Positions 26,338-53,665 of a stretch of DNA of 64,000 nt are shown one piece after another; the first letter of the stretch is position 1; every line of letters begins with the position of its first letter. The DNA is taken from the NCBI RefSeq assembly GCF_022654015.1, contig NZ_CP073063.1:2232001-2296000 (forward strand), in the 5' to 3' direction. The position numbers and the translations under genes are program-made. The DNA comes from Brevundimonas diminuta (GTDB lineage: Bacteria > Pseudomonadota > Alphaproteobacteria > Caulobacterales > Caulobacteraceae). The notes under the pieces were generated by a model. The model was not told the origin of the DNA and made no database searches. It was given only the letters and a program-made list of their open reading frames with translations.

Positions 26338-27270
26338 ATGCGCGATGTCGCCGTCATCATCCCGACCCTGCGCAGGCCGGACAGTCTGGAGCGGTCCCTG
26401 CGGTCGGTCTTCACTCAGACCGGATCGCTGCAGCGCGTCGCCGCCATCGTCGTCGCCGATAACGACCCCGACGGATCAGCCGCGCCCCTGATCGAGCACC
26501 TGCGCGCCCAGGCGCCCGTGCCCCTGATCTACGCCCACGCCCCCGTCCCCGGCGTGGCGACCGCGCGCAATGTCGGCCTGTCCGCCACCGACGCGACCCT
26601 GATCGCCTTTCTGGACGACGACGAAGCCGCCTCTCCCGGCTGGCTCGCCGCCCTGCTGAGCGCCCAAACCCAGACCGGCGCCGATGTTGTCTTCGGCCCC
26701 ATTCGCGGACGGGTGCCGGAAAACACCGGCTGGACCACCGCCTATCTGGAGCGGTTCTTTGGACGCGACGGCCCGCGCGAGACCGGACTGACCGACGACA
26801 TCCACGGCTGCGGAAACAGTCTTATGGTGCGGGCGACCGCCCTGCTCGGCGAGGCCCCGTTCGACGTCGCCATGAACGAGACGGGCGGCGAGGACGACCG
26901 GCTGTTCACCGCCCTGTCGTCGCGCGGCGGCCGGTTCGGCTGGGCCGCCGAGGCCTGGGTGGACGAGTTCGCACCGCCCCACCGCGCGACGCTGACCTAC
27001 GCTCTGACCCGCGCCTTCGCCTATGGCCAGAGCCCGATCCAGATGGCCGCCGACCGCCGCGACTGGCCGGGCGTCGTCAAATGGATGCTGGTAGGCCTAG
27101 TCCAGACCGGGATTTGGGGTGCCGCATCGCTTCTGGCCGCCGTCCTTCGCCGTCCCGACCGCGCCCACACCTACGACCGCTGCGCGCGTGGTCTCGGCAA
27201 GGTCTTCTGGACCAAAGGCTTCGAGCCGAAACTCTACGGCGCGGCAATGCTGAGGCGCCCCCCGGCCTGA
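26338..27270 (+). CDS. Glycosyltransferase family 2
   Basis: This second GT2 enzyme has 310 residues. DVAVIIPTLRRPDSLERSLRSV opens the fold, IVVADNDPDG holds the first acidic pair, and LIAFLDDDEAASPGWL supplies the DXD-type metal site. ETGGEDDRLF is the likely catalytic-base region. A hydrophobic helix near the C-terminus (MLVGLVQTGIWGAASLLAAVL) may tether it to the membrane. The ATG at 26338 lies two bases after the previous stop; the longer open frame upstream is only the preceding gene read out of frame. It is the last gene of the rightward polysaccharide operon and could correspond to another holdfast transferase such as HfsL. Confidence 0.75.
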   Translation: MRDVAVIIPTLRRPDSLERSLRSVFTQTGSLQRVAAIVVADNDPDGSAAPLIEHLRAQAPVPLIYAHAPVPGVATARNVGLSATDATLIAFLDDDEAASPGWLAALLSAQTQTGADVVFGPIRGRVPENTGWTTAYLERFFGRDGPRETGLTDDIHGCGNSLMVRATALLGEAPFDVAMNETGGEDDRLFTALSSRGGRFGWAAEAWVDEFAPPHRATLTYALTRAFAYGQSPIQMAADRRDWPGVVKWMLVGLVQTGIWGAASLLAAVLRRPDRAHTYDRCARGLGKVFWTKGFEPKLYGAAMLRRPPA

Positions 27271-27774
27271 TCAGCGGATCGGCATGTAGCGGCAGGTGAA
27301 GTCCGGATCGCCGCTCATCAGGCTGGGCTTGAGGTGGATGTACAGACGTTCAGCGCCTGCAACGTCGTCCAGCGCAAACGCCTGTTCGGCCTCATACATC
27401 TCGTCCCGATGCGCGTCCGTCCAATCGTGGGCCAGTTTGATGGCGCGCGCCTTGGCTGCCGGCAGGCCGTCGGCGACGACAAAGACATTGCGGTGCTGCT
27501 CGGCGAACCCCACCCCGTCGTAGCCGCCCAGGTTCACGTAGTAGAGCTTTTCCTTGCCCTCATAAGGCGTCGGCGACAGGCTGACCTCATAGCCGTCCGC
27601 CTGCGAAATCTCCGACCAGCAATCGATGTGCAACGTCCCTTCACGTCCCCACCACTGCGCCAGCAAGGCGTCTTTCGTCGCTTCGATCGTGGGGGCGACG
27701 AGGAAGCGCATATCGTGGACCTCGATATTCGCGCCGGGGTGTTCCCCGCCGATGTAGATCGCAAACAGTTTCAT
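27271..27774 (-). CDS. DUF1543-like protein
   Basis: This 167-residue soluble protein opens with KLFAIYIGGEHPGANIEVHDMRFLVA, which I recall as the DUF1543 pattern. It lacks a signal peptide or membrane helix, and no enzymatic motif is recognisable. It ends one base from the convergent glycosyltransferase stop and starts 11 bases after the oxidoreductase gene on the same strand, so it probably shares that transcript. The function is unknown. Confidence 0.65.
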   Translation of the reverse strand: MKLFAIYIGGEHPGANIEVHDMRFLVAPTIEATKDALLAQWWGREGTLHIDCWSEISQADGYEVSLSPTPYEGKEKLYYVNLGGYDGVGFAEQHRNVFVVADGLPAAKARAIKLAHDWTDAHRDEMYEAEQAFALDDVAGAERLYIHLKPSLMSGDPDFTCRYMPIR

Positions 27775-27785
27775 TCGTCCTCGCG

Positions 27786-29456
27786 TCAGGCCGCTGTATC
27801 GGCGTGGTCGACCGCAGGCTTTGCGGTATTCAGGATCAACGCCAGTCGCCGACCGACGATCCCGCCCATTTCGTGCGAACTGGTGATGCCTTGCGCGAAG
27901 GGATGCCGCCCCATGATGAACGGCAGGCTGAGACAGAACAGCCGATCCATCGGCAGGGGCGCATCGACCGGCCGGAACAGGTCATCGACAGCAATCCCCC
28001 GGACCACGTCGGGCGCATCGTTGGCGACCTGATCTCGAACGATACCCTGCTCCAGCAGCGACAGGAACGGAAACTGGATGCCGCTCAGGGCCGCCTGACC
28101 CGTCGCCTCGATGAAGATCGGGAAATGACGCGTTTCACCATTGATCGTGACGCGAGCCCCGCCTTCGGGACAACGCGTATCGACGTCGTGATCGTCGCCC
28201 AAGGCGATGACGTCCAGCCGCCCGGCGGCGTGCAGCGCCAGCATACGCTCGATCGATTCGTGCGGCACGCCGGCGTAGATATCGACGAAGATCGGCTTGA
28301 AGGCGCGGCTGAACCGCTCGAACTCGGCGCTGTCCAGATGCGACACGATGACGGCGACGATCTCGTGCATGCGAAGGATGCCGTCGCGCCAGGCCACGGT
28401 CACCTGTGCGGCATGGTTCGCCTGCGCCTCCTTCAGGTTCGCGGCGGCCCAAACAAACGGATCGACCGCCGCGCGGCGAGCGAAATAGGCCTCGGCGAAG
28501 GTTTCCAGCGTCGCATCATGCAGTCCCGTCTCGGCGGCGTAGTCAGGGTCCAGATGGATCAGCTCGGTTCGAAACAGGTCGAACACGGCGTCCAGCAGCC
28601 CGTCAGGGCCGCGTGCCACAGCCGCAGCGACAGCCTCGGGCGTGCAATAGGTCAGCGGGCCATGCGGCAGCGGAAAATAGAAGTCCGCCTCGGGCAGCAG
28701 CCCCTTTCGCGACATCATGGCGATGTGAAAATCCTCGGTATCCGGTGCCGGCTGATAGATCAGCCGATCGTCCCGCCGAACGAAGTCGCCGTGCGACGTG
28801 GCCAGGGCGACGGCCGCATCGATGGCCGTCAACGACGACCCCCGAATGCCGATGCGTGTCGCCGGAACATCCGCGAGGTCAGACGCAGGCCATGGGCTCA
28901 GGAAATATCCGGGCTGGGCGTCCGGCCGCGACGGCCACTGGTGACCCGTCGCCAGAACCGCGTGGTCGAATACAGCCTTGGCGACCTTCCACGACGGCGG
29001 CGACGTGAAGGTCAGCTCGATGCCGTCCTTGCGATTTGCCGCGTCGATGACCCGACATCCCGTCCGCACATCGATGAGAACGCCCTTGGCGCGGGCCTGC
29101 TGGACCAGGGTGGCGAACTGACTTTCGAAATATCGCCCCAAGGCGACACGCGGGACGAAGGTGCGCTCATCGAGAGACGCCCCATCCACGTCCAGCTCGG
29201 CCAACTCGGCGGGCGTTCGTGCCGACAGCCAGTCGGCCAGCGTGTCCTGCAATGGCGGGATTTCGATGCTGGCGATGTTGGACAGCATCGCCGGGTCGTT
29301 CCAGTCCGGGCTGTAGGGACTACCGCAGCCAGCCGTCTCGCGCGCCTCGAACACTGTGACCCGCGCCGAAACAACACCTTGGGACAGCAGGGCATGCAGG
29401 GCGTAGAGCGTCGTCGGCCCCGCTCCGACGAATGCGACGGACTTTGTCATGGCCAC
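27786..29456 (-). CDS. FAD/NAD(P)-binding oxidoreductase (YdhS-like)
   Basis: This 556-residue protein begins with a FAD-binding motif (VAFVGAGPTTLYALHALL), then carries MLSNIASIEIPP and DHAVLATGHQWPSRP, features of the FAD-NAD(P)-binding family represented by E. coli YdhS. A second dinucleotide site may lie at IGIRGSSLTAIDAAVAL. The substrate is not known for the family. It stands between the two arms of the polysaccharide locus, with no obvious link to polymer synthesis. ATG at 29456 and an in-frame ATG six bases later are equally good starts. Confidence 0.75.
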   Translation of the reverse strand: MAMTKSVAFVGAGPTTLYALHALLSQGVVSARVTVFEARETAGCGSPYSPDWNDPAMLSNIASIEIPPLQDTLADWLSARTPAELAELDVDGASLDERTFVPRVALGRYFESQFATLVQQARAKGVLIDVRTGCRVIDAANRKDGIELTFTSPPSWKVAKAVFDHAVLATGHQWPSRPDAQPGYFLSPWPASDLADVPATRIGIRGSSLTAIDAAVALATSHGDFVRRDDRLIYQPAPDTEDFHIAMMSRKGLLPEADFYFPLPHGPLTYCTPEAVAAAVARGPDGLLDAVFDLFRTELIHLDPDYAAETGLHDATLETFAEAYFARRAAVDPFVWAAANLKEAQANHAAQVTVAWRDGILRMHEIVAVIVSHLDSAEFERFSRAFKPIFVDIYAGVPHESIERMLALHAAGRLDVIALGDDHDVDTRCPEGGARVTINGETRHFPIFIEATGQAALSGIQFPFLSLLEQGIVRDQVANDAPDVVRGIAVDDLFRPVDAPLPMDRLFCLSLPFIMGRHPFAQGITSSHEMGGIVGRRLALILNTAKPAVDHADTAA

Positions 29457-29570
29457 ACAATGCGCGACGCACGCAAAGGCGCCGCATCCGCGCTCGATTT
29501 CAGCGCAACCGCTTCATCTTCTTGCCGAATGTGCGGAATCGGACGTCTGAAACGTCTACTAGGAAAGGCT

Positions 29571-30272
29571 TCAGCCCATCAGCCGCTGCAAGAACCCCGG
29601 CGCCTTGTAGGTCGAGCGGTTCATGACCACGCCGGCGATCTTTCCCCCTACAGCCTCAATCTCGTCGCGCAAGATGACCGGCGCATGGGCGGCCGTGCTT
29701 TCGGCGGCGATCACCAGAACTGTCATGTCCACAAAAGGCGCCAGGATGATCGCCATGTCGTTGCGGTCAGCGGCAGGCGCGTCGATGACGATGGTGTCGG
29801 CGTGGGGCCGCAGCGCCTCCCAATAGCGGGGCTCTCCGACCGCCTCGACCCGGTGCCCGGACCGCAGCGCTTCCATGTGGAAATGCGTGACCCACAACCG
29901 GCCGCCCAGGCAGGACCGCGCCGTCAGCAGCCGCGAATCCGGCACCGGCTTGCCGTCGCGCCCGGTCACGCGCGGCGTCACGGCGTAGAAGCTTGAGCCG
30001 TCGGGCGAGCCCTGCGCCGCCTTGCCGACCTGGCCGAAACGATCCGGCTCGGCTGACACTGTCTCCAACTGCCTCTGCTGCGCCAGATCGCCGTCAATCA
30101 GCCAGACGGGCTTGCGCGCCCGCACCGCCGCCAGCCGCGCGAACTCGCGCGCCACGGTCGAGACGCCCTCTCCGGTGACGGCGGAGGCAAACTGGATCAC
30201 GCGCGCGCGGTGCGCCGGCGCCGGTCCCAACGTCGCCCAAAGGCCCGCCATTTCTGAAGTCAGATCGACCAT
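29571..30272 (-). CDS. hfsB: Polysaccharide chain-length/tyrosine-kinase-like ATPase (HfsB-like)
   Basis: This 233-residue protein resembles the cytoplasmic CpsD/Wzc kinase domain. VIQFASAVTGEGVSTVAREFARLAA corresponds to the P-loop region with the usual GKS/T degraded to GVST, then VWLIDGDLAQQ (Walker A') and DTIVIDAPAA (Walker B). The missing P-loop lysine and the absence of a C-terminal tyrosine cluster argue for a non-kinase regulatory partner, as in Caulobacter HfsB. It is separated from the hfsA-like gene upstream by 47 bases on the same strand. The symbol is assigned from the B-A-D neighbourhood. Confidence 0.6.
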   Translation of the reverse strand: MVDLTSEMAGLWATLGPAPAHRARVIQFASAVTGEGVSTVAREFARLAAVRARKPVWLIDGDLAQQRQLETVSAEPDRFGQVGKAAQGSPDGSSFYAVTPRVTGRDGKPVPDSRLLTARSCLGGRLWVTHFHMEALRSGHRVEAVGEPRYWEALRPHADTIVIDAPAADRNDMAIILAPFVDMTVLVIAAESTAAHAPVILRDEIEAVGGKIAGVVMNRSTYKAPGFLQRLMG

Positions 30273-30319
30273 CGAATCGCCAAGGCGCTCCCTAAGCCCT
30301 CAGCCTAGCACGAGTTTCG

Positions 30320-31759
30320 CTAAGCCGCCTTGGCCGGCGCGACGGCGAGAACCGGCATGTCCAGCGTGCGGCTGACCGAGGCCGGGGTCGTGAAGCCGCG
30401 ACGCGTGAACACCCGCAACAGGCCGACGCACAGGGCCGTGAAACCCGCGAACAGGAAGACCGCCGCCAGCAGCGGGATCTTCAGGCTCTTTCCGGTCGCC
30501 GGCGGCTGGGCGCGTTCGATGACGGTGACGTTGTCGGCGCCGGCGGCGACCAGCGCGTTGTCGGCGCGGCTCTGGGTTTCGCGCTGCTGGAACTCCCGGA
30601 TGGAGGCGCTCAGCACTTCGCGATTGCCGGCCAGGGTCGTGTTCTCGGATTCCAGCGCCGTCAGCCGCGTCTGCCGCGAACGGATGTCGGCCAGCTGCCG
30701 ATCCAGCACCGCCAGACGCGCCGCCAGCGAGTCCCGCTCGGCCCGGGTGTTGATCCGCGTGGTTTCCAGCTCGGTCCAGACGGGGTTCGGTCCGGTGCGG
30801 ACCTCCTTGGCTCCGACGGCTGTGCCGGTCGCAACATAGGCTTGCAGTTGGTTGATCCGCGCTTCGATGTCCTTCACCGGCTGGGCGTCGGGCTGATAGC
30901 GTGACAACAGTTGCTCGCGCTCGGTGCGCAGTTGCAGCACCTGGTCCTGGGCCGAAATGTTCAGATCCTGCTGCAGCGCCACCTCCGCCGGGGTTCCCGC
31001 CTGCTGCGCGATCAGGGTGTTCAGCCGCTGGGCGGTCTGGTTCAGCTGGCTCTGCGTCGACATCCGGTCGGTGAAGACCGTCTGATAGGTCGCCGCCAAC
31101 GTCGCCTTGGCCGCCGTGAAGTCGCCGATGTCGTTGGACGCCAGGAAGGCCTCGTAGGCGCGGTCCGCATTGCCGAGCTCATCCTCGAAGGCGATGCGCT
31201 GGCTGGCGATGGCCGGCGTCTTGTCCTGGAAGACTTCGCGGCGGTAGATCAGATATTGCTCGATGATTGTGTTCAGGACCCGGGCCGCGCGTTCGGGATC
31301 GTCGGCCTTGTAGGTCAGATGGATGACCGCGCTGCCCGGCGCCGTGGCGACGCCCAGGCCGCCGCCGACGGCCTTCAGCGCAGCGGACCGCGCGGCCTGC
31401 GGACTGCCCTTGTGCGGCTCGCCCAGGATGGCGGCCGGGCCCAGGGCATCGACCACCTTCTGGCGAACAGCGCTTGAACCCAGGATGGCGGCTTCGGAGT
31501 TGGCGACCTCGTCGCCCTGCGGCGCTTGGCCCCGCTCGGCCGTGCCGACGCGCGGTTGATAGACGTATTCCTGACCCACGCCTGCGAACACCGAGCCGGT
31601 GGCGGTGTAGCTCTTCTTCAGCGTCATGGCGGCGGCGAACCCCAGCCCCAGGATCACCACGAAGACGACGATCATCAGCAGCAATTCGCGGAACAACAGG
31701 CCGATCACGTCCAGAACGCCGTAGCGCGGCCTTGTGGTGACGTGGGCGGTGGAGCGCAT
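30320..31759 (-). CDS. hfsA: Polysaccharide co-polymerase/chain-length determinant, GumC/Wzc type (HfsA-like)
   Basis: This inner-membrane protein of about 479 residues has an N-terminal helix (LLLMIVVFVVILGLGFAAAM), a long periplasmic coiled-coil region with RAERDSLAARLAVLDRQLADI, and a second helix near the C-terminus (IPLLAAVFLFAGFTALCVGLL). This is the Wzz/GumC architecture that controls polymer length and bridges to the outer-membrane export channel. It lacks the fused kinase domain, which is the separate protein encoded next to it. ATG at 31759 gives a normal N-terminus; GTG at 31798 is an alternative. It diverges from the OPX gene by 121 bases. Confidence 0.7.
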   Translation of the reverse strand: MRSTAHVTTRPRYGVLDVIGLLFRELLLMIVVFVVILGLGFAAAMTLKKSYTATGSVFAGVGQEYVYQPRVGTAERGQAPQGDEVANSEAAILGSSAVRQKVVDALGPAAILGEPHKGSPQAARSAALKAVGGGLGVATAPGSAVIHLTYKADDPERAARVLNTIIEQYLIYRREVFQDKTPAIASQRIAFEDELGNADRAYEAFLASNDIGDFTAAKATLAATYQTVFTDRMSTQSQLNQTAQRLNTLIAQQAGTPAEVALQQDLNISAQDQVLQLRTEREQLLSRYQPDAQPVKDIEARINQLQAYVATGTAVGAKEVRTGPNPVWTELETTRINTRAERDSLAARLAVLDRQLADIRSRQTRLTALESENTTLAGNREVLSASIREFQQRETQSRADNALVAAGADNVTVIERAQPPATGKSLKIPLLAAVFLFAGFTALCVGLLRVFTRRGFTTPASVSRTLDMPVLAVAPAKAA

Positions 31760-31814
31760 CGGGCGGGCCGAATCCCTTGAAAGGCGTGTTGTCTTCACCC
31801 TTCGCCCACCGGCG

Positions 31815-31830
31815 TTAACTGATGGTTACC
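31815..31830 (+). promoter_or_regulatory. Possible CtrA binding site between hfsA-like and hfsD-like genes
   Basis: TTAA (31815-31818), seven bases, then TTACC (31826-31830) differs by one base from the Caulobacter CtrA consensus TTAA-N7-TTAAC. It overlaps a short inverted repeat GGTTA-CCCA-TAACC (31824-31837). CtrA is the cell-cycle regulator of polar genes in this order, so a site here would be sensible, but single near-matches also occur by chance. Confidence 0.35.
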
Positions 31831-31880
31831 CATAACCGGCGAGGTTGGCTCAAATCCCTCGTCGAGGCCGACCGATTCCC

Positions 31881-32630
31881 ATGCTGACCGATCGCCGCCT
31901 GTTTCTGCTGACCCTGGGTTCAGCCTCCATCGCCGCCTCGCTGGCGGCCTGCGGCGGGGCCGGCGGCGTTCGCGATCCCCGGCGCGTCGATCGGTCGCCC
32001 TACGACGACCTCGCCGGCCTGGCCTTCGCCCCCTGGACGGATCAGGAACCGGAATATCTGCTGTATCCTGGCGACGAAATCGAGGTGGCGACGCCGACGG
32101 CCTCGGAGTTGACCCGGACCCTCAAGGTCAGTCCCGATGGTCGTATCGCCCTGCCCCTGATCGGATCGGTCATGGCGGCGGATCGCACCCTGCCCCAGCT
32201 TCAGCAGGTCGTCTCTGCGGCCTATGCGACCCAGTTGGTGCGCCCTGTTGTCGAGGTCACCCTGCGTCAGGCCGGGCCGATCCGCGTCTGGGTCGACGGC
32301 GAGGTGCGCAACCCGGGGGTCTTCGAAATGATCGGCGATCTGGACGCCTATCAGGCGGTGATCCAGGCCGGCGGCTTCGCCCCGACGTCGCGTCAGGACA
32401 GCGTGGCCCTGATCCGTCGAGGGCCCGGCGGATCACGCATGATGCGGGTGGTGGACCTGCGTCCCCGTCGCGGCGAGGTCGTGGCCTTGCGGCGCGGCGA
32501 CATCGTCTTCGTACCGCGTTCGACACTGGGCGAGCTGGCGGCCTTCTTCACCCAGGTGCGCGCCGCGCTGCCGATCGGCTTCAGCTATTCGATCAACGGA
32601 TCGAACGGCAACGGCTACGCCCAGTTCTGA
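31881..32630 (+). CDS. hfsD: Polysaccharide export lipoprotein, OPX family (HfsD-like)
   Basis: This 249-residue outer-membrane polysaccharide export protein has a lipoprotein signal ending SLAACGG. A polysaccharide-export domain (YLLYPGDEIEVATPTASELT through VVEVTLRQA) is followed by a SLBB-type domain (RVWVDGEVRNPGVFEM). It would oligomerise into the export channel for the polymer built by the neighbouring enzymes. The start at ATG 31881 gives a normal signal peptide; a longer frame to 31845 does not. Placement beside hfsA/hfsB-like genes supports HfsD, the holdfast OPX protein, over a generic Wza. Confidence 0.75.
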   Translation: MLTDRRLFLLTLGSASIAASLAACGGAGGVRDPRRVDRSPYDDLAGLAFAPWTDQEPEYLLYPGDEIEVATPTASELTRTLKVSPDGRIALPLIGSVMAADRTLPQLQQVVSAAYATQLVRPVVEVTLRQAGPIRVWVDGEVRNPGVFEMIGDLDAYQAVIQAGGFAPTSRQDSVALIRRGPGGSRMMRVVDLRPRRGEVVALRRGDIVFVPRSTLGELAAFFTQVRAALPIGFSYSINGSNGNGYAQF

Positions 32631-32639
32631 GCCAGCCGC

Positions 32640-32945
32640 TTAGGCGACCAGCTGAACCACGCCCTGGTCGATGTAGCGCCGCGCGGCCTTCTGGGCTTCG
32701 GCGATCTCCTCGCGTTCCATCTCCAGGCTCATCTCGCGGCGGTAGACGCGCGCCTCGATCGAACCCTTCATGGCCGCCAGGTTGAAGATCATGTGGGCCG
32801 ACACCCGGTCCATCGGGCAACCGCCCGATCCGGCCGAGTACATCATGCCCAATTTGAACAAGTCGTCGCCGGACATGTCCGGGGTCGGCAGGGGCAGACC
32901 GTCGTCGTGGGCCTGCAGGTCGTGCGCCATTTCTTGCGCGTTCAT
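32640..32945 (-). CDS. Small Sel1-repeat-like protein
   Basis: This is a 101-residue soluble protein. DDLFKLGMMYSAGSGGCPMDRVSAHMIFNLAAMKGSIEAR has the helix-turn-helix pattern of a Sel1-like repeat, and a charged helix follows. AGGAG lies eight bases before ATG 32945; the GTG just upstream is also possible. It converges with the OPX gene (nine bases apart), so it is a separate transcript. Sel1 repeats mediate protein contacts; no partner is evident. Confidence 0.65.
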   Translation of the reverse strand: MNAQEMAHDLQAHDDGLPLPTPDMSGDDLFKLGMMYSAGSGGCPMDRVSAHMIFNLAAMKGSIEARVYRREMSLEMEREEIAEAQKAARRYIDQGVVQLVA

Positions 32946-33259
32946 CACCGTATCTCCTCAACGGGCGCCCTTCTGGACCCGCCTCTGAGACGCCATCAAA
33001 TACCGGTGGTTTGAAGTTAAAGTTAACGGCGAGAGGCCTTCCACGCACTTTTCAGTAAAGCAGAAATGAATACTTCCGACGCGATTCAGATCTCGGAAAT
33101 CTCTGATAAATCTCTCGTTTACGCCTCGCAGGCGCGGCCTACGCGCGCTGCAAACCTGACGGGATCGTTCAGCGGGCATTCAGGCGCGAAATCCGACCTT
33201 GCTCATCATTAACGGGTCGGATCGGCACATCCGTCGGCGGCCCAGAATGGAGCACGAAG
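32946..33259. other. Gene-free, relatively AT-rich intergenic region
   Basis: No convincing gene is seen here. The stretch is clearly richer in A and T than its surroundings (for example around 32993-33030 and 33055-33125). It contains GTTAAAGTTAACGG near 33017-33030 and CATTAACGGG near 33207. It must hold the divergent promoters of the small Sel1-like gene and the first RcnB-like gene. GGAGCACGAAG before 33260 is the ribosome-binding site of the latter. Confidence 0.6.
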
Positions 33260-33844
33260 ATGAACCGCCTCACCAAGGCCGCCGTCGTCGCCCTCGCCCT
33301 GTCGACCACGGCCGTGCCGATGCTCGTCCAGGCCCAGGACCGCGACCGCCGCGAGTATCGTCAGGATCGTCGTGACGACCGCCGCGACTTCCGTCAGGAA
33401 CGCCGTGAAGATCGCCGCGACTGGCGCGACGGTCGCTATGACAGCCGCCAGGACTATCGCCGGGACCGCCGCGACGACCGTCGTGACTATCGCGACGAAC
33501 GCCGGGACGACCGTCGCGATTGGCGCAACGACCGCTGGGACCGCAATAACAGCAACTGGTGGCGCGGGCGCTCGGACTTCCGTGGCTACAACGGTCCGCG
33601 CGCAGGCTACTGGTACGCCCCCAGCTATGGCTACTATCGGGTCGAGCCGCGCTACAGCAACTATCGCTGGCGCACCGGCGGTTATCTGCCCTACCAGTAT
33701 CGCAACTACTATGTCCGCGACCCCTATGTTTACGGTCTTCGCGAAGCGCCGCGCGGCTATCGCTACGTCCACGCCGGCAACGATATCCTGTTGATCGCTG
33801 TGGCCAGCGGCCTGATCGCCAGCGTCCTCTCGGGCGTCTATTAA
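33260..33844 (+). CDS. RcnB-like periplasmic protein, Arg/Asp-rich
   Basis: This 194-residue protein has a clear signal peptide (to about LVQAQ, residue 26) and a long stretch of alternating Arg and Asp with Tyr (DRREYRQDRRDDRRDF and similar, residues 28-95). A conserved C-terminal domain contains WYAPSYGYYRVEP, GGYLPYQYRNYYV and ending APRGYRYVHAGNDILLIA. This C-terminal pattern is the RcnB family, periplasmic proteins linked to nickel/cobalt homeostasis in E. coli; a metal role is not shown here. GGAGCACGAAG precedes the ATG, and a terminator follows at 33868. Confidence 0.75.
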   Translation: MNRLTKAAVVALALSTTAVPMLVQAQDRDRREYRQDRRDDRRDFRQERREDRRDWRDGRYDSRQDYRRDRRDDRRDYRDERRDDRRDWRNDRWDRNNSNWWRGRSDFRGYNGPRAGYWYAPSYGYYRVEPRYSNYRWRTGGYLPYQYRNYYVRDPYVYGLREAPRGYRYVHAGNDILLIAVASGLIASVLSGVY

Positions 33845-33867
33845 GCCTCGCCATAACCGGACGATCG

Positions 33868-33904
33868 AACCCCGCAGGTCTTGCCTGCGGGGTTCTGCTT
33901 TTTC
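33868..33904 (+). terminator. Rho-independent terminator
   Basis: AACCCCGCAGG (33868-33878) pairs perfectly with 33884-33894 around a five-base loop, followed by CTGCTTTTTC. It closes the first RcnB-like transcript, so the two RcnB-like genes are separate units. Confidence 0.85.
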
Positions 33905-34006
33905 GGACAGTCCCTTGATTGCGAACGGTGTTCAGCCTGGGTTCATCGCCACGGATCGATGATCGTCTCAAGCCGCCGGAGACCCGGCGTGCAGGAACGA
34001 AAGACC

Positions 34007-35056
34007 ATGAAACGCCTCCTGATGGCTTTCACCGCCATCGCCGCCGTCGCCGGCCCGCTTGCAGCTCCGATGCAGGCCCTCGCCCAAGAACAGGAACAGG
34101 CTCAACAGGGTCAGGCTCAGCAGGAACGACCGCAGCGCGAAGGGCGGGCCCGCGGCATGAACCGGCCCGAGCGTCCGCAGATGGGTCGTGAAGACGGACC
34201 GCGCGAGCCTCGCCCCGAACGTCCCAGCCGCCCCGCAAACGATACGCCCCGTGCCGAGCGCCCGTCGGGTGGCGAACGGCCCAATGCGGCCGGCCAGCGT
34301 CCGGATCGTCCCGAAGGCGGTTGGAACCGGCCCGATCGTCCGAACACCGGCGGCCAGCGTCCGGATCGTCCCGTAGGCGGTTGGAACCGTCCCGATCGTC
34401 CGAACACCGGCGGCCAACGCCCAGACCGGCCCGAAGGCGGCTGGAACCGTCCTGATCGTCCGAACACCGGCGGCCAACGTCCAGACCGACCCGAAGGCGG
34501 TTGGAACCGACCCGATCGCCCGAACACCGGCGGCCAACGTCCAGACCGCCCCGAAGGCGGCTGGAACCGACCCGACCGGCCCGACCGCCCAAATACGGGC
34601 GGCCAACGTCCAGACCGTCCCGGTAACGGCTGGAACCGTCCCGACCGTCCGGGCTCGGGCTGGAACAACGGTCGTGACCGCGACCGTCAGCACCGTGAGT
34701 TCCGCCAGCGCTTCAACGGCGATCAGTGGCGGCGCGACTTCTATCGCAACCACCGCTCGGACTGGTGGCGCAACGATCGGCGCTTCAGGGGATACAACGG
34801 CGTGCGCGTCGGCTTCTACTTCGCGCCGGGCTGGGGCTACTACAGCGTGCCACGCTCCTACTGGGGCCGGTCGTGGTCGGTCGGCCAGTACCTGCCGGAA
34901 GCCTTCTGGCGCTATCAGTTGAACGACTGGCGCACCTACGGCCTGGGCTATCCGCCGGAGGGCACACGCTGGGTCTCGGTCGACAACACCCTGTATCTGA
35001 TCGACGAATACGACGGCTACATCATCGACGTCATCCGCGACGCCTGGCGCTGGTAA
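34007..35056 (+). CDS. RcnB-like secreted protein with Pro/Arg/Asp-rich tandem repeats
   Basis: This 349-residue protein begins with a signal peptide (MKRLLMAFTAIAAVAGPLAA through QALAQ), then a Gln/Arg-rich stretch. Residues 95-218 repeat a 20-residue unit (GQRPDRPEGGWNRPDRPNTG). The C-terminal domain of about 120 residues (WRRDFYRNHRSDWWRNDRRF, YFAPGWGYYSVP, EGTRWVSVDNTLYLID) matches the end of the RcnB-like protein encoded just upstream. The repeat region is proline-rich and probably extended, perhaps spanning the periplasm or binding envelope components. AGGA before ATG 34007 supports the start. It is flanked by terminators on both sides. Confidence 0.75.
   Translation: MKRLLMAFTAIAAVAGPLAAPMQALAQEQEQAQQGQAQQERPQREGRARGMNRPERPQMGREDGPREPRPERPSRPANDTPRAERPSGGERPNAAGQRPDRPEGGWNRPDRPNTGGQRPDRPVGGWNRPDRPNTGGQRPDRPEGGWNRPDRPNTGGQRPDRPEGGWNRPDRPNTGGQRPDRPEGGWNRPDRPDRPNTGGQRPDRPGNGWNRPDRPGSGWNNGRDRDRQHREFRQRFNGDQWRRDFYRNHRSDWWRNDRRFRGYNGVRVGFYFAPGWGYYSVPRSYWGRSWSVGQYLPEAFWRYQLNDWRTYGLGYPPEGTRWVSVDNTLYLIDEYDGYIIDVIRDAWRW
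34291..34660 (+). repeat. 60-bp coding tandem repeat
   Basis: Four near-perfect 60-base units start at 34291, 34351, 34411 and 34471. A fifth starts at 34531 with a nine-base insertion, and a diverged sixth starts at about 34600. They encode the 20-residue Pro/Arg/Asp/Trp repeat of the second RcnB-like protein. Unit differences are mostly synonymous third-position changes (cgg/cga, cgt/cgc), suggesting selection on the protein. Confidence 0.9.
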
Positions 35057-41577: not shown

Positions 41578-42848
41578 CCACCGTCGCCATCATCAACGCC
41601 CGTTTGCTGGACCCCGCGTCCGACTATGACGGCCCAGGCGGCCTGTTGATCCAGGACGGCCGCATCAGCCGCGTCATCCATGGCCCGACGCCGGACCTGG
41701 CGGCGGATCAGATCATCGACGCCGACGGCTTCTGCCTCGCGCCCGGCCTGATCGACATCCGGGTCAAGACCGGCGAACCCGGCGCCGAGCCGAAGGAGAC
41801 GCTGAAGTCCGCCAGCCTGGCCGCCGCCGCCGGGGGCGTGACGACCATCGTCGTCCAGCCCGACACCGACCCCGCCGTCGACGACCCCGCCATGATCGAT
41901 TTCATCCAGCGGCGCGGCGCGGCGCTGAACCTCGTCAACGTCCGCGCCGCCGGCGCCGCGACCAAGGCTCTGGACGGTCAGCGCATGGCCGAGATCGGCC
42001 TGATGGACGAGGCCGGCGCCCTGTATTTCACCGACGGCGACAAAGTCATCGTCAACAGCCGCACCTTGCAACGGGTGATGAGCTACGCCGCCGCCTTTAA
42101 CGCCCTGATCGCCTGCCGCCCGGCCGATCCCTGGCTGACGGAAGGCGCGGTCGCCGCCTCCGGCGAACTGGCCACGCGCCTGGGCCTTTCCGGCAGCCCC
42201 GCCATCGCCGAGCGGATCGGGCTGGAGCGCGATCTGGCCCTGGTCGAACAGACCGGCGCGCGGTTCCTGGTGGATCAGATTTCGACCGAGGGCGCGCTGG
42301 ACACCCTGGCCCGCGCCCGCGCGAAGGGGCTGGAGGTCGCCGTCAGCGTCTCGATCAACCACCTGTGCTTCAACGAGGTGGACATCGGCGATTATCGCAC
42401 CTTCTACCGGCTGGACCCGCCGCTGCGCTCCGAAGCCGACCGCCAGGCCCTGATCGAGGCCGTGCGGGAGGGCCTGATCGACGTCATCACCTCCGCCCAC
42501 GCTCCCGCCCCGGCCGAGGACAAGCGCCGCCCGTTCGCCGAGGCCGCGCCCGGCGCGATCGGCCTGGAGACCCTGCTGCCCGCCGCCCTGACCCTGCATC
42601 ACGAAGATGGTCTGGACCTGCTCGACGTGTTGCGTCCGCTGACCCAGGGCCCCGCCGCCCTGCTCGGCCTCGACGCCGGCGTCCTGGCCGAGGGCGCCCC
42701 TGCTGACATCATCCTGTTCGACGCCGGCGCCCCCGTCATCATCGACGCGGACGCCCTTCACTCCAAGTCCAAGAACTCGCCCTTCGACGGCCGCCGGCTT
42801 CAGGGCAAGCTGATCGGAACCTGGGTGAACGGTCGCAAGGTCTTCTGA
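41574..42848 (+). CDS. pyrC': Non-catalytic dihydroorotase homologue (PyrC'), likely structural partner of PyrB
   Basis: This 424-residue protein has the dihydroorotase amidohydrolase fold ([52 protein letters not shown]). The zinc ligands are gone. The normal HxH is R63-V-K65, the normal TDHAP is SAHAP (A308), and the histidines expected in the ICAH and CHVST blocks are IACR and VDQIST. It therefore cannot be an active metal-dependent dihydroorotase. In Pseudomonas such a PyrC' holds PyrB together in the active dodecamer. The coupled start on pyrB supports that here. A working pyrC must be elsewhere in the genome. Confidence 0.85.
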
Positions 42849-42856
42849 AGATCAGC

Positions 42857-43789
42857 TCAGCGCGGCCGCGCGCACGTCGCGGCCTTGGCCACCTCGGCGC
42901 CCAGCACCGACTTGACGGCCAGCGGCGTGTCGGTGGCGATGACGGTCACGCCCTGGCGCACCAGATCGCGGTATTCCGAAACGTCGCCATCGGCGGCGTA
43001 GCGGTCGTCGCGGCGCATGCCCTCGGCGCCCAATGTGCCGAACTGAACCTCGACCCCGGCCTCACGCAGGGCGCGCCACAGCGCCGGACGCTCCTCGCGC
43101 GTGCCGGTCCAGGCCAGGATCTGCGCCGGGTTCAGCCCGCTCAGGTTATCCACGCCGCTTAACCCGGCCGAGATCATCATCTCCGGCGCCATAGCCGCCA
43201 CCGCCCGCGCATCGGCGTCATTATAGGTGATCAGGATCACCCGGTTTCCGGCCCGCGACTGGCGCACCTGATCGATCACGGCTCGCGCCAGATCGACCGT
43301 GGTTTCGCCGTCGGCAGGCTTCAGGTCGATGCTGGCGATGGCGCCCACGCGTCCGGCGGCGTCCAGCGCCTCGCCCAGCGTCGGCGGCGCGGCGCGCGTC
43401 AAGGCGCCGTTCGACGCCTTCAGCCGCGCCTGTTTCACCTGGGCCAGCGTCAGGTCCGCGACCCGCCCGCGCCCCGTGGTCGTCCGGTCCATGGTGTCGT
43501 CATGCATCAGAACCAGCTGACGGTCCTTGGTCAGGACCGCGTCCAGCTCCAGGATCGCATTGGGGATCGCCCGGCCTGTCGCCTCGATGGCGGCGATGGA
43601 GTTCTCTGGCTGGTCCAGCGCCGAAACCGCCCGGTGCGCCGAAATCGCCACGCCGCCGTCCCGCACGCAGTCGAAATAGGCCGCCATCGCCGGACCCGAG
43701 GGCGGCGCAGACGCCACCGGCGGAGCGCCCACGCAACCTGTCGTCGAAAGCAGCAGCAGGGTCGCGGCGGCGGCGGAAATACGGGTCAT
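42857..43789 (-). CDS. Glycerophosphodiester phosphodiesterase family lipoprotein
   Basis: This 310-residue envelope protein has a lipobox (STTGCVG) after a short signal. The GDPD motifs follow: [20 protein letters not shown] (catalytic His and Glu), [26 protein letters not shown] (metal-binding Glu/Asp and second His) and SIDLKPA. It probably hydrolyses glycerophosphodiesters from phospholipids outside the cytoplasm. ATG 43789, after GGAG, replaces a longer frame to 43819. It converges with pyrC' (eight bases apart) and diverges from plsY, another phospholipid gene. Confidence 0.8.
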
Positions 43790-48734: not shown

Positions 48735-48785
48735 AAAGGATCGTGCATGGCGCGAATCCCCCCCGCGCCCTATCTTCACCTGCTC

Positions 48786-50675
48786 ATGCCCATCCGCCGC
48801 CTTTCCCCCGAAACCGTCAACCGCATCGCCGCCGGCGAGGTGGTCGAGCGGCCGGCCAGCGCCATCAAGGAACTGGTCGAGAACGCCCTGGACGCCGGCG
48901 GCCGCAACATCGAGATCCAGGCCGACGGCGGCGGCCTGTCGCGCATCCTGATCGCCGACGACGGCAAGGGCATTCCGCGCGAGGAACTGCCGCTGGCCAT
49001 CGAGCGCCACGCCACCTCCAAGCTTGAGCCGGACGACGCCGGCGACGTCGACCTGCTGCGCATCCACACCCTGGGCTTCCGGGGCGAGGCCCTGCCTTCG
49101 ATTGGCTCGGTCGCCCGCCTGTCGATCACCACCCGATCCCGCGACGAAACCGACGCCTGGGCCATCACGGTCGAGGGCGGCGAGACCCGTCCCCTGGCCC
49201 CCGCCCCCTTCCCCGGCCCGCACGGCGCGCGGGTCGAGGTGCGCGACCTCTTCTACGCCACCCCCGCCCGGCTCAAGTTCATGAAGTCCGAGCGGTCCGA
49301 GGCCATGGCCATCTCAGAGGAGATCAAGCGCCAGGCCATGGCGCACGAGGCCGTCGCCTTCACCCTGTCGCTGGACGGCAAGGTCACCCTGCGCCTGCCC
49401 GCCGAACACCCCGGCGACGAAGGCCGGCTGAAGCGGCTGTCCGCCCTGCTGGGCCGCGACTTCGAGGCCAACGCCCTGTTGATCGATCAGGAACGCGACG
49501 GCGTGCGCCTGTCGGGCTATGCGGGCCTGCCCACCTATTCGCGCGGCAATGCGGCGCATCAGTATCTGTTCGTCAACGGCCGCCCGGTGAAGGACCGGCT
49601 GCTGCAAGGCGCCCTGCGCGGGGCCTACGCCGACTTTCTGGCGCGCGACCGGCATCCGGCCGCCGTCCTGTTTCTCGACATCGATCCGCTCTATGTCGAC
49701 GTCAACGTCCACCCCGCCAAGGCCGAGGTCCGGTTCCGCGATCCGGCCCTGGTGCGCGGCCTGATCGTCGGCGCCCTGCGGCACGCGCTCCACGCCGCCG
49801 GCCATCGCGCCTCGACAACCGTCGCGGCCGACGCCCTGTCGGGTTTTCAGCCCCACACCGGTGTCGCATCCGGCCCCGCCTACAGCCCCAGCGCCCCGTC
49901 GGCGCAAGGCTTCAGCGGCTGGACCGGCTGGTCCCAGCCCGCTGCGGCCGCGCAAGTTCTCCCCGGCCTCAACGAACGCAGCGCCCGCGTCGAACCCAGC
50001 TGGGACGGCCCCGCATGGCCGTCGCCATCCGCCGATGCCTCCCCGATCAGTCACGAGCCACGATTCACCGCTCACGCTCCGGCCGACCCCCTTGACTACC
50101 CCCTGGGCGCCGCGCGGGGGCAGCTCCACGCCAACTACATCGTCGCCCAGACCCGCGACGGCCTGGTCATCGTCGATCAGCACGCGGCGCATGAGCGGCT
50201 GGTCTATGAACGGATGAAGGCCCAGATGGCCGAGGGGTCCGTGACCCGCCAGGCCCTGCTGACGCCCGAGGTGGTCGATCTGGACCCCGCCGAGGCCGAG
50301 CGCGTCGCCGGGCGGGCCGAGGAACTGGCCGAGATGGGCCTGATCGTCGAGGCCTTCGGCGCCGGCGCCGTCCTGGTGCGCGAGACCCCGGCCATGCTGG
50401 GCGATACGGATGTTCAGGGCCTGATCCGCGACATCGCCGACGACCTGTCCGAACACGGCCAGGCCCTGTCGCTCAAGGAACGTCTCGCCGCCATCTGCGG
50501 AACCATGGCCTGCCACGGCAGCGTCCGCTCAGGCCGCGTCCTCTCGGCGCCGGAGATGAACGCCCTGCTCCGCCAGATGGAAGCCACCCCCCACTCCGGC
50601 CAATGCAACCACGGCCGCCCGACCTATGTGGAGCTGAAGCTGCACGATCTGGAGAAGCTGTTCGGGAGACGGTGA
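48786..50675 (+). CDS. mutL: DNA mismatch repair protein MutL
   Basis: This 629-residue GHKL ATPase couples MutS to downstream repair. [34 protein letters not shown] carries the N and first ATP motifs, IADDGKGIP and the [16 protein letters not shown] lid follow, and the C-terminal dimerisation region has [15 protein letters not shown] and [12 protein letters not shown] DQHAxHE-type metal motif suggests an endonuclease-competent MutL. ATG 48786 matches the conserved N-terminus; ATG 48747, preceded by AAAGGA, would add 13 residues from the repeat edge. A Pro/Ser-rich linker sits at about residues 345-440. Confidence 0.94.
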
Positions 50676-50771
50676 GGAAATTCGACACATTTTTAAGCTC
50701 GATCAGGAATCCACTTGACGCGAGATACCATTTTCGGGAATTCCCTTGCACAGCGAAGCAGAGGAGCACTC

Positions 50772-51443
50772 GTGTCAGTCTTCCAATCTCAACTTGAAGA
50801 CGCCTTTCCCGCATCGACTGATGCGGCTGTCATTCTAGGAGTTAAACAGGGCGTCCTTCTGGCAAACGCTGCACTTGAGAATGAACTGTTTCTCGCGACG
50901 CCTGTGGGACGTGATTTGCGCGGCCATCTCAGACGTGCGGCGGTCCTTTTCCGCATCCATGAACTCTGCAAAAATGGAGATCTCCCTTTCAATTCGTCGA
51001 TTGACCGAATGCCTCGGGGGGGCGGCCATTGGGTCGAACTTCATTCTGGCAATTTCCGTGCTCACATTTGCCGAGCCGATGGACCAGCCGCCTTCCCTGA
51101 GGACACTCCCACTCGACAAGATCAGCGACATTCAAACCAGTTGGACTTGTTTGCTGACAACGTTGTTCTGTTGCCAGGCACGGAAAATCTAGCGAACTGC
51201 TACGCTTGGTTGACCTTCGGCGTTGAAGGCTCCTCTTTGGGTCACGTTTGTTGGGCAATGCCAAAAGCGACGCGCGATGAATGGTTGGCTCGGATCAATG
51301 TAATCGAGCGGGCGGCACGCAACTCGGCAACAGCAAAAGAGCCGGAAGCCCCTACCAAGGCTATGCGCCTTCGTTTCCGCGAGCACATTGAGGAATCGCT
51401 TCAGAAAAGCGAGGACAGCGATAACGCTAAGAAGACTGAGTGA
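50772..51443 (+). CDS. Unrecognised protein, first gene of an AT-rich cassette with an XRE-ImmA gene
   Basis: This 223-residue protein is not recognised. It starts SVFQSQLEDAFPASTDAAVILG, with GGGHWVELHSGNFRAHICRA and NLANCYAWLTFGVEGSSLGHVCWAMP as mid-region blocks, and ends in a charged, probably helical tail (RLRFREHIEESLQKSEDSDNAKK). No signal peptide or membrane helix is seen. GTG 50772 is chosen because GAGGAG lies six bases before it; TTG 50715 is in frame but weaker. Base composition is visibly more AT-rich than mutL before it. The stop overlaps or abuts the XRE-ImmA gene start (GTGA at 51440-51443), so the two are translated together and probably act together. Confidence 0.7.
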   Translation: MSVFQSQLEDAFPASTDAAVILGVKQGVLLANAALENELFLATPVGRDLRGHLRRAAVLFRIHELCKNGDLPFNSSIDRMPRGGGHWVELHSGNFRAHICRADGPAAFPEDTPTRQDQRHSNQLDLFADNVVLLPGTENLANCYAWLTFGVEGSSLGHVCWAMPKATRDEWLARINVIERAARNSATAKEPEAPTKAMRLRFREHIEESLQKSEDSDNAKKTE

Positions 51444-51448
51444 TTTTC

Positions 51449-52585
51449 ATGAGTGTCGGTGCTGGGACCGAAAGGCAGACAGCCAAGCCTATCCCGGAGC
51501 GTATCCGAGAGGCGCGGGAAGCGCGCGGCTATAGCGCAGAGATTTTCGCTGAACGGTTGGGCGTCACGCGCCAAGCTGTCGCTCAATATGAAACAGGCCA
51601 AGCCTCTCCAAGCGGAGAGGTTATGAGAAAGATTGTGGTTGAGACTGCCCAACCTGTGGCATTCTTTACCACAATGCCCTCGCGTGCCGGAGAACCTAAG
51701 TCACCCTTCTTCCGCAGCCTGAAGCGAATGGAGCAGCAGCAGCGCAAGCGTATCATTCGTCGCCTGCAATGGGCTGGCGACATTACAACTATGATAAGCC
51801 GGTTCATAGACTTGCCACAGCTTAGCTTACCGACCGTATGGTTCGACGCTGATCGAGACGACGTTGAAGAAATCGAAGCTGCTGCCGAAGCCCTTAGAGA
51901 TCATTGGAATTTGGGAAGAGGCCCCATCCGCGATCTTGCAGAAGTTCTCGAACGACATGGCGTGATTTTAGTTCGAGAACGCGTTGACTGCTTAGATATG
52001 GATGCCGTTAGTTGCTGGATCGGGGGCCGAGCCTTTATTCTCCTATCAGCCGAAGTCACAAGCGGGCCAAGAGACAAGTTCAATCTCGCACACGAGCTTG
52101 GACACTTGGTTATGCACTCTGATGTCGAGATCAACTCTGACAATCTAGATCGAATCGAGCGACAAGCTAACCGGTTCGCGAGTGCATTCCTCATGCCATC
52201 AGAGTCGTTTAGCCGAGAGGTACTTGGAACTTCGATTGACTATTTCTTAGCTCTCAAAGAGCGCTGGGGAGTATCTATCGTCGCAATGGCTTATCGATGC
52301 CGCGACCTGAACATCCTCTCAGAAAATCAGTTCTCGTACATATTTAGGCAGATGAACGCCCGAAAGATTAGAAAAGTAGAACCTCTTGACGATTATTTCC
52401 CCGTAGCCAAACCCAACGTCTTGCAACAGGGAATTGAGATGCTTGTTGAGCATGGCGTTTTCACGAGAGAGCAGATTGAAAGCTCTCTCTCCATGAACAT
52501 GGCGGATGTAGAGTCTTTATCCGGCGTGAATTCGGGATATTTGGACCGACGGATTGTAAAATTACAATTCGCCAACCAAAACTGA
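51449..52585 (+). CDS. XRE-type helix-turn-helix fused to an ImmA/IrrE (M78) metallopeptidase domain
   Basis: This is a 378-residue protein in two parts. An N-terminal XRE helix-turn-helix (residues 13-66; RIREAREARGYSAEIFAERLGVTR, AQYETGQASPS) is followed by a middle linker. The metallopeptidase domain has the zinc motif HELGH (215-219) and the third-ligand region ERQANRFASAFLMP (Glu near 238). ImmA and IrrE-like peptidases cleave repressors to trigger stress or prophage genes, and such fusions occur in mobile and defence modules. Here it is coupled to an unrecognised upstream gene. ATG 51449 is used; GTG 51440 overlapping the upstream stop is also possible. AT-rich codon use points to transfer. 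The stop shares a base with the next gene's ATG. Confidence 0.85.
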   Translation: MSVGAGTERQTAKPIPERIREAREARGYSAEIFAERLGVTRQAVAQYETGQASPSGEVMRKIVVETAQPVAFFTTMPSRAGEPKSPFFRSLKRMEQQQRKRIIRRLQWAGDITTMISRFIDLPQLSLPTVWFDADRDDVEEIEAAAEALRDHWNLGRGPIRDLAEVLERHGVILVRERVDCLDMDAVSCWIGGRAFILLSAEVTSGPRDKFNLAHELGHLVMHSDVEINSDNLDRIERQANRFASAFLMPSESFSREVLGTSIDYFLALKERWGVSIVAMAYRCRDLNILSENQFSYIFRQMNARKIRKVEPLDDYFPVAKPNVLQQGIEMLVEHGVFTREQIESSLSMNMADVESLSGVNSGYLDRRIVKLQFANQN

Positions 52586-53055
52586 TGAGCAGCCACCGGG
52601 GACCGCCCTCCATCCTCTTCGTCTGCCTCGGCAACATCTGTCGCTCTCCCCTCGCCGAGGCCGCCCTGCGCGCCGAGGCTGAGCGGCTCCGGCTCGACCT
52701 GATCGTCGATTCCGCCGGGACCGGGGACTGGCATGCGGGCGAGGCGCCGGACCCGCGGGCGCAGGCGACGGCGCGACGTCATGGGGTCGAGATTTCGGGG
52801 TTGAAGGCGCGGCAGGTGACGCAGGCGGACTTTCGCCGCTTCACCCACGTCATCGCCCTGGACCACGACAATCTGAAAAACCTGCGCCGCCTGCGTCCCG
52901 CCGATGCGACCGCCGAGCTCAGCCTGCTGCTCGACCACGTCCCCCGCCGCGAGGGTCAGGCCGTCGCCGACCCCTATTTTGGCGACGACGACGGTTTCGA
53001 AATCACCTGGGCCGAGGTGACGGCGGCGGCGAAAGCTTTGGTCGCCAAGCTGTAA
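52585..53055 (+). CDS. Low-molecular-weight protein tyrosine phosphatase
   Basis: This 156-residue cytoplasmic phosphatase has the P-loop CLGNICRSP (Cys14, Arg20) and the general-acid motif ADPYFGD. The rest follows the LMW-PTP fold (DSAGTGDWHAGEAPDPRA). GC content and codon use return to the chromosomal norm, unlike the gene before it. ATG 52585 shares a base with the stop of the XRE-ImmA gene. In other bacteria these enzymes act on tyrosine kinases of capsule systems or on arsenate; neither is implied here. Confidence 0.9.
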   Translation: MSSHRGPPSILFVCLGNICRSPLAEAALRAEAERLRLDLIVDSAGTGDWHAGEAPDPRAQATARRHGVEISGLKARQVTQADFRRFTHVIALDHDNLKNLRRLRPADATAELSLLLDHVPRREGQAVADPYFGDDDGFEITWAEVTAAAKALVAKL

Positions 53056-53089
53056 CCCCCACCCGTTGAGAGACGGGCAGCGTCGCCAA

Positions 53090-53665
53090 TCACTCGGCTG
53101 TCGGCGAAACCTTCAGGAACAGCACCCTGGCTGCGCCATAGTCACGCGCGTCCAGCCGCTGATAGCCGGGGGTGTCGATCTCCGGCTCGTCGGAACCGCG
53201 CTCGAACACCACCAGGGCGCCGGGCTTGAGCCAGCTTCCCTCGATCAGCCGCGCCAGCGTTTGTTCCCCCAACCCCTTGGCATAGGGCGGGTCCAGAAAC
53301 GCCAGGTCGAACGCCTCGGCGATCGGGCCGGGCCGCACGCCCAGGTCCGTCGCGCTTCGGCGATGCACCCGCGTGCATCCCATCAGCCCATAGGCGTCGG
53401 CGTTCTCACGGATCGCGCCGCGCGCCCCGTCGTCCGTCTCGACGAACAGGCAGAAGCCCGCGCCCCGGCTGACCGCCTCGAACCCCAGGGCGCCCGAACC
53501 GGCGTACAGGTCGATGACCCGCAAGCCTTGCAGGCTCTCGCCCCAGGCGGCGTGTTCCAGCACGTTGAACACGGCCTGGCGCGCGCGGTCCGAGGTCGGA
53601 CGCGTGCCCTGCCCCTCCGGCGCGACGATGGCCCGGCCCTTCAGACTTCCGGCGACGATCCGCAT
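53090..53665 (-). CDS. rsmD: 16S rRNA (guanine(966)-N(2))-methyltransferase RsmD
   Basis: This 191-residue SAM-dependent methyltransferase starts MRIVAGSLKGRAIVAPEGQG and TRPTSDRARQAVFN, the RsmD signature. It has the SAM-binding VIDLYAGSGALGFEAVSRG and the catalytic DPPY in FDLAFLDPPYAKGL. It methylates G966 of 16S rRNA in the small subunit. ATG 53665 overlaps by one base the stop of the upstream TMEM175-like gene; the open frame further upstream is that gene out of frame. Confidence 0.93.
   Translation of the reverse strand: MRIVAGSLKGRAIVAPEGQGTRPTSDRARQAVFNVLEHAAWGESLQGLRVIDLYAGSGALGFEAVSRGAGFCLFVETDDGARGAIRENADAYGLMGCTRVHRRSATDLGVRPGPIAEAFDLAFLDPPYAKGLGEQTLARLIEGSWLKPGALVVFERGSDEPEIDTPGYQRLDARDYGAARVLFLKVSPTAE

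Follow-up and report, generated by a model that had tools for sequence, protein, structure and literature searches.

A RosmerTA module with a predicted clamp-binding toxin at a cassette hotspot between mutL and a phosphatase gene of Brevundimonas

What are two AT-rich genes doing between mutL and a low-molecular-weight phosphatase gene of Brevundimonas diminuta, and how might their products act? The pair occupies positions 50676 to 52585 of a stretch of 64,000 nucleotides (GCF_022654015.1, contig NZ_CP073063.1, positions 2,232,001 to 2,296,000, forward strand), which we call the window and whose numbering is used here unless a locus is named. A preliminary description of this DNA saw a transferred regulatory or defence module with a fusion of XRE and ImmA domains, and an upstream partner that it could not place. 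We assign the two genes to RosmerTA, and our preferred reading, to which we give a probability of about 0.62, is that the toxin RmrT blocks replication by capturing the sliding clamp DnaN, as part of a complete RosmerTA module seated at a hotspot between core genes; clamp binding, toxicity, neutralisation, trigger and defence are here predictions from sequence. Neither the clamp-binding motif of the toxin nor the hotspot had been foreseen in the preliminary description.

Four features were mapped within the cassette:

50772..51443, + strand: rmrT, RosmerTA toxin gene, 223 amino acids, GTG start (PADLOC RmrT model PDLC03933, E 6.1e-20; also PDLC03940 and PDLC03938)
51440..52585, + strand: rmrA, RosmerTA antitoxin gene, 381 amino acids, GTG start (PADLOC RmrA model PDLC03947, E 1.5e-117)
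52091..52105, + strand: HELGH zinc-site codons of RmrA, residues 218-222 (invariant in a seven-sequence RmrA alignment)
50715..50743, + strand: block that we take to be promoter-like, TTGACG (50715-50720), 17 bp, GAATTC (50738-50743), picked by eye against the promoter consensus

Because both proteins match the PADLOC models for RmrT and RmrA, the cassette is, by family assignment, a RosmerTA module. This system had been named in the preliminary description as one example of a module combining XRE and ImmA components, and the unplaced upstream partner is RmrT. The PDLC03933 match spans RmrT residues 5-212, while the fusion described earlier appears in RmrA as HTH_3 (3e-12, residues 22-65) and Peptidase_M78 (1.7e-24, residues 171-287); neither protein matched a housekeeping family. 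Homologous pairs from named sources lie in a Caulobacter metagenome-assembled genome (locus L004; the toxins are 87% identical, and 1851 bp align with 78.7% nucleotide identity), in Stakelama flava (L005, 63% toxin identity) and on a Sphingobium plasmid (L184, 55%). AGAGGAG precedes the GTG start of rmrT, and the TTG at 50715, chosen by the open-reading-frame (ORF) lister, is probably not the start, as it forms part of the presumed -35 box. Upstream of the pair, the parts TTGAC, GAGAT and CGGGAAT are retained in L004 and L184, and less so in L005. A perfect palindrome upstream of rmrT, GGGAATTCCC, was considered as an operator and rejected because it is not retained in L004.

The pointer to a mechanism is a short motif in the toxin:

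51138..51152, + strand: QLDLF codons, RmrT residues 123-127, predicted beta-clamp-binding motif (consensus of PMC11139829)

Clamp-binding motifs are described as Q(aliphatic)x[L/M][F/L] or Q(aliphatic)x[L/M]x[F/L], with QLDLF as both the consensus and the strongest clamp-binding pentapeptide (PMC11139829). Across a family set of 148 sequences (the window's RmrT and 147 homologues), Q123, L126 and F127 are strongly conserved and residues 128-130 and 135-142 are variable. A relaxed motif is present in 131, as a Qxx[LM][FL] pentamer in 118 and a hexamer in 13; a further 16 fell outside both patterns, and in one the anchor used was missing. The published motif in its strict form, which requires an aliphatic residue at position 2, is found as 36 pentamers and 8 hexamers. 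Of the 21 sequences whose position 5 is not F or L, 19 have F, L or I at position 6, against 12 of the 127 others (Fisher 5.8e-14), and the same switch is seen among 56 sequences sharing less than 70% identity (7/7 versus 7/49, p 1.5e-5). This compensation between pentamer and hexamer is the expected outcome of, and therefore consistent with, selection on a clamp motif. In the AlphaFold model of RmrT, the mean predicted local distance difference test score is 84.1, and residues 111-140 score 61-64, so that QLDLF sits in a loop modelled with low confidence. The genome's own DnaN (one match) has DGHRL and MPLRV, which we take to be signatures of the binding pocket.

The Q..LF segment adjoins a conserved PEDTPTRQDQR element, and for that reason it might be an antitoxin contact. 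This observation would suit a toxin that acts elsewhere, on the membrane or in translation, the conserved Q..LF being a clamp-motif look-alike with an internal structural or RmrA-binding role. Further support comes from the RosmerTA system of Gordonia phage Kita, which protects Escherichia coli against some phages and whose RmrT works on membranes (PMC10440598). We nonetheless consider action elsewhere quite improbable, given that the switch between pentamer and hexamer tracks the published clamp consensus and that suppressors of a pneumococcal Rosmer toxin, RipA, map to DnaN: substitutions in the DnaN hydrophobic pocket suppress RipA, and the interaction of the two proteins is described in two assays (PMC12795458).

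A different alternative, which we judge unlikely, is that the toxin kills as an enzyme, be it a degenerate nuclease of the PD-(D/E)XK type or some other hydrolase, with QLDLF only tethering it to the clamp at replicating DNA. RmrT does have invariant residues apart from the motif (D48, R54, R55, H86, H158, W146 and W161). No lysine of a catalytic D...(D/E)xK occurs among its invariant or nearly invariant positions, the RmrT alignment found nothing among PDB sequences at E 10, and the RmrT model found nothing among PDB and viral models at E 1e-3 with Foldseek; because Foldseek gave no match, we treat the PD-(D/E)XK resemblance as a lead only.

Is the clamp motif peculiar to this family, or does it recur in other Rosmer toxins? 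A discovery set comprised 19 toxins encoded next to RmrA in distant loci, 15 of them upstream partners and 4 from phage or plasmid records; it left out the upstream ORFs of L015, L026 and L032, and L188, from the same genome as L004, was unused. Residues 110-155 of these toxins held the strict motif in 4 (0.28 expected) and the relaxed motif in 11 (1.25 expected). Motifs resembling QLDLF at a comparable position include QISMEF in L013, QLSLF in L181, QYDLF in L017 and EISLF in L180. Since the relaxed pattern was loosened after these same toxins had been inspected, they serve as discovery and not as a test. When upstream and downstream neighbours of RmrA were mixed, 5 of 31 ORFs carried the motif, with 2.07 expected.

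The test itself, for the motif at residues 110-155 of toxins adjoining RmrA, was planned before any new loci were fetched. The planned ORF size was 150-300 amino acids and the size used was 150-320, which admitted one extra ORF to the genome set (L205, 309 amino acids, no motif). Nineteen new genome loci, less four without a usable upstream ORF or RmrA, left 15 toxins, among which L205 and L206 were kept though not toxin-like. Eight of these 15 carried the strict motif in the planned region (0.21 expected from shuffles) and none elsewhere (0.82 expected); the relaxed form gave 8 (0.80 expected) and, elsewhere, 4 (3.04 expected). From the best 80 of 347 viral loci, found with RmrA alignment A2 as query, 10 were dropped on the same grounds, and the remaining 70 toxins were reduced to 53 at less than 70% identity. 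Here the strict motif was found at residues 110-155 in 11 (0.94 expected) and the relaxed motif in 30 (3.88 expected), with counts near background outside that region (strict 5 versus 3.30, relaxed 17 versus 14.89). Controls were low: 1/51 for RmrA proteins at residues 110-155, and 7/408 (strict) or 24/408 (relaxed) for ORFs of 155-320 amino acids, some of which are perhaps not genes. Because the motif is enriched at residues 110-155 in both new test sets, we regard a predicted clamp motif as recurring among Rosmer toxins without being universal. In several toxins lacking a full match, remnants such as DLF were noticed by eye. Among the listed titles and abstract openings from the open-licence literature, there was no report of a clamp motif in Rosmer toxins, and the word 'motif' is absent from the main text on RipA (PMC12795458).

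These data are consistent with a model in which RmrA, through its XRE repressor and M78/ImmA peptidase domains, would repress the operon and neutralise RmrT. Loss or inactivation of RmrA, presumably in phage infection, would free RmrT, whose exposed QLDLF would enter the hydrophobic pocket of DnaN that polymerases and MutL use. With DnaN occupied, DNA replication would stop, and the infected cell would yield no phage.

Several observations count against clamp capture. The strict form of the motif fits only 44 of the 148 family members, position 2 often being G, P, N or F, and 17 of the 148 fit neither relaxed form. Strict motifs are likewise missing from 15/19 discovery toxins, 7/15 genome toxins and 42/53 viral toxins. 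In the shuffle and Fisher tests, sequences that share ancestry count as if they were independent, with redundancy cut only to less than 70% identity. The Kita RmrT is described as depolarising membranes instead (PMC10440598), and RmrT may have a second activity, since it has invariant residues besides the motif.

How did the module come to lie here? Its setting is defined by three features:

48747..50675, + strand: mutL, left flank of the cassette (Pfam MutL_C 9.7e-50, DNA_mis_repair 1.9e-37)
50676..52605, no strand: low-GC inserted segment without counterpart in the aligned relatives (alignments and composition)
52585..53055, + strand: low-molecular-weight phosphatase gene, right flank (Pfam LMWPc 2.8e-35)

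Two overlapping genes on the + strand fill the interval from the mutL stop at 50675 to the ATG of the phosphatase gene at 52585; rmrT and rmrA share 4 nt, rmrA and the phosphatase ATG share 1 nt, and the right edge of the inserted segment falls about 20 nt inside the annotated phosphatase ORF. The GC content is 0.54 in rmrT and 0.51 in rmrA, compared with 0.67-0.71 for topA, mutL and the phosphatase gene, and at third codon positions (GC3) it is 0.53 in both cassette genes, compared with 0.87, 0.89 and 0.85, respectively. Across the whole 64 kb, scanned in 500-base intervals at steps of 250, GC falls below 0.58 in eight intervals, all starting at 50501-52251. In all five relatives aligned with the window (two alignments running from about 22 kb, the others from 17 kb, from 35 kb and over the whole window), homology stops at 50675-50680 and restarts at 52605-52607. 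Six relatives (L048, L050, L051, L052, L060 and L063) have a mutL stop codon that overlaps the start of the phosphatase gene. Coordinates and GC3 thus agree with the AT-rich cassette fitting exactly between its neighbours that the preliminary description had reported, and the checks it proposed of composition and of adjacency in relatives both came out in its favour. A transferred XRE-ImmA defence or toxin-antitoxin module is supported by the atypical composition and by the absence of the toxin from the 60 relatives searched; toxicity and defence are predictions.

By comparison with relatives, the insertion has replaced the phosphatase start. Translation of the phosphatase gene may now be coupled to that of rmrA, since its new start overlaps the rmrA stop. 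Directly before the conserved CCC-TCC of the phosphatase gene, 35 of 67 genomes have an ATG and the window has CCG; the gene begins six codons earlier in the window, at the ATG overlapping the rmrA stop (52585-52607).

The same junction was then compared across the genus. We found mutL in 122 of 131 genomes, and 94 loci, including the window, entered the junction count (28 of the 122 lie outside it). The phosphatase gene follows mutL in 67 of the 94 and was not found within the fetched stretch in the other 27. The gap between the two genes is at most 200 bp in 26 genomes, 301-371 bp in 3 and 463-7479 bp in 38; among the 23 relatives whose mutL shows 90% identity or more, the phosphatase gene lies downstream in 22 and an insert of at least 463 bp is present in 19. 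Inserts range from 0.46 to 7.5 kb, with 27 of the 38 measuring 1.0-2.5 kb, and GC is 0.60 or lower in 26 of them (mean 0.56, versus 0.72 for mutL). Only two pairs, L074/L159 and L089/L090, share a cassette over most of its length, and partial matches link few other inserts, giving 32 groups by single linkage. The topA-mutL junction proved a poor control (49-326 bp in 11 of the 23 near relatives, with topA outside the fetched stretch in the rest), and the five alignments with the window were used instead: all five relatives have non-homologous DNA at the mutL-phosphatase junction, which is true of no other junction, and the runner-up, phosphatase-rsmD, has extra DNA in four. The phosphatase-rsmD junction (window 53056-53110) measures at least 400 bp in 47 of 58 genomes and at most 60 bp in 10.

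This comparative evidence marks the mutL-phosphatase junction as a hotspot for cassettes throughout the genus, filled in 38 of 67 genomes and nearly always with different genes. We infer that cassettes are replaced by recombination in the flanking genes, an idea also raised for Pseudomonas aeruginosa hotspots (PMC10250203); insert proteins scanned against Pfam matched no integrase family. Among the papers listed from the open-licence literature on defense hotspots with mutL or in Brevundimonas, a P. aeruginosa genome survey and a study of soil phages, we found no description of this site.

A PADLOC scan covered 28 of the 38 inserts, not always with every ORF, and gave a match at E 1e-7 or better in 13, a raw count; the other 15 had no match at that threshold. 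The matches comprise RosmerTA, a PD-Lambda-5 protein, DRT2, AbiL, AbiU, PDC-S20, PDC-M03, PDC-M53, a GmrSD-HEPN pair, a kinase, a caspase-like protein, an AAA protein and a Panacea protein, and for several of them the match is to a general domain (kinase, AAA, caspase, Panacea). Inserts L072, L085 and L077 hold ordinary regulatory or metabolic genes, with GC of 0.62-0.65. At the same junction in relative G797 (L065:7040-8217), a protein whose Panacea-domain match falls below the Pfam cut-off is paired with a proteasome-like protein, and the two form an unusual candidate toxin-antitoxin pair.

The contents of the junction also bear on whether the window's cassette is concerned with defence at all. 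It could instead be a regulator pair of the mobile-element type, like ImmR/ImmA, left behind by an island: ImmA-type proteases regulate mobile elements (PMC10440598), and the L004 pair adjoins an integrase-like gene, with a guaA-like gene upstream (names by eye). We hold this to be very improbable, because RmrA and RmrT both match their PADLOC models, the cassette consists of these two genes only, and 13 of the 28 inserts examined at the junction have defence-like content.

The distribution of the toxin was also traced. Our searches found 114 RmrT homologues; the toxin was in none of 60 other genomes of the genus and order, the window's own being the only one in 61. A search with the RmrT alignment (A1) of 385 genomes of the class likewise gave only that copy, so the family is rare in the class sample, and the PADLOC RmrT model matched 2 of 398 genomes of the phylum, this one and one other. 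With tblastn, RmrT was absent from 50,697 phage records (E 0.01) and present once in 72,556 plasmid records. RmrA found, in its own genome, the cassette copy and one weak match (35%) to its helix-turn-helix end, and the RmrA sequence by itself retrieved no relative from viral contigs. By eye, a similar gene of 355-359 amino acids follows rmrTA in L004 (7927-8994) and L017 and is absent from the window; it could be either a third part of the module or a defence gene lying nearby. The RmrA genes of L202, L203, L028 and L031 have no upstream toxin by the terms of our scripts and have a gene of 166-167 amino acids downstream, the start of which looks PIN-domain-like by eye in L028 and L031.

Variation elsewhere in the window was also noted. 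The tRNA-Ser gene at 22234-22325 is an edge of synteny, where the alignments of two relatives (G825, G797) start and a third (G884) has 1.8 kb inserted, and it is likely an integration site. In place of positions 27252-29573, G825 has 16.5 kb of other DNA, and G884 has 21.3 kb in place of 27252-34393; some ORFs of 27252-34393 look by eye like polysaccharide chain-length or export genes. Three of the five relatives carry 1.0-1.26 kb of extra DNA at 42841-42857.

Taken more broadly, we lean, at a little better than even odds, towards a general statement: most Rosmer-fold toxins, of bacteria and phages alike, would hijack the sliding clamp through a loop at about residues 110-155 that plugs the DnaN pocket, RipA being one proven case, and the mutL-phosphatase junction would be the genus's port for single defence cassettes. 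For most RosmerTA toxins we found no cellular target stated in the literature examined. A short motif of this kind predicts a target and could be abolished by altering a few codons, which opens the question to experiment throughout the family. Should this be how phages relying on the host clamp are stopped, the clamp pocket would be a target common to defence toxins and to antibiotics under study. The junction, for its part, is a simple place to seek new small defence cassettes.

Among known systems, RosmerTA as described in PADLOC-DB and PMC10440598 has the same order, a toxin followed by an XRE-M78 antitoxin in adjacent genes. Its Kita toxin is described as membrane-depolarising, whereas the RmrT family has a clamp motif, a contrast by description only (PMC10440598); as the Kita toxin depolarises membranes, partners of RmrA differ in action. 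RipAB (Spr1630/Spr1629) of Streptococcus pneumoniae likewise joins a Rosmer toxin to an XRE-ImmA antitoxin, a likeness again drawn from description (PMC12795458); RmrA scored 200.6 bits against the RipB family NF052239, below its cut-off of 335, and so is not assigned to that family. In Caulobacter crescentus, SocB captures the clamp through a clamp-binding motif (PMC9690074), and SocAB would be alike in having a pocket-occupying toxin if the clamp prediction holds (PMC9690074, PMC12795458), although SocA is a Panacea-domain antitoxin and RmrA has no Panacea match (Pfam, E 1 or better). No homology between SocB and RipA is reported in PMC12795458, and the clamp motif would link RosmerTA to both. 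Finally, as in the core defense hotspots of P. aeruginosa, many kinds of defence gene appear to be exchanged between fixed core genes at the mutL-phosphatase junction, in inserts that are small compared with the medians of 26 and 6 kb given for those hotspots (PMC10250203).
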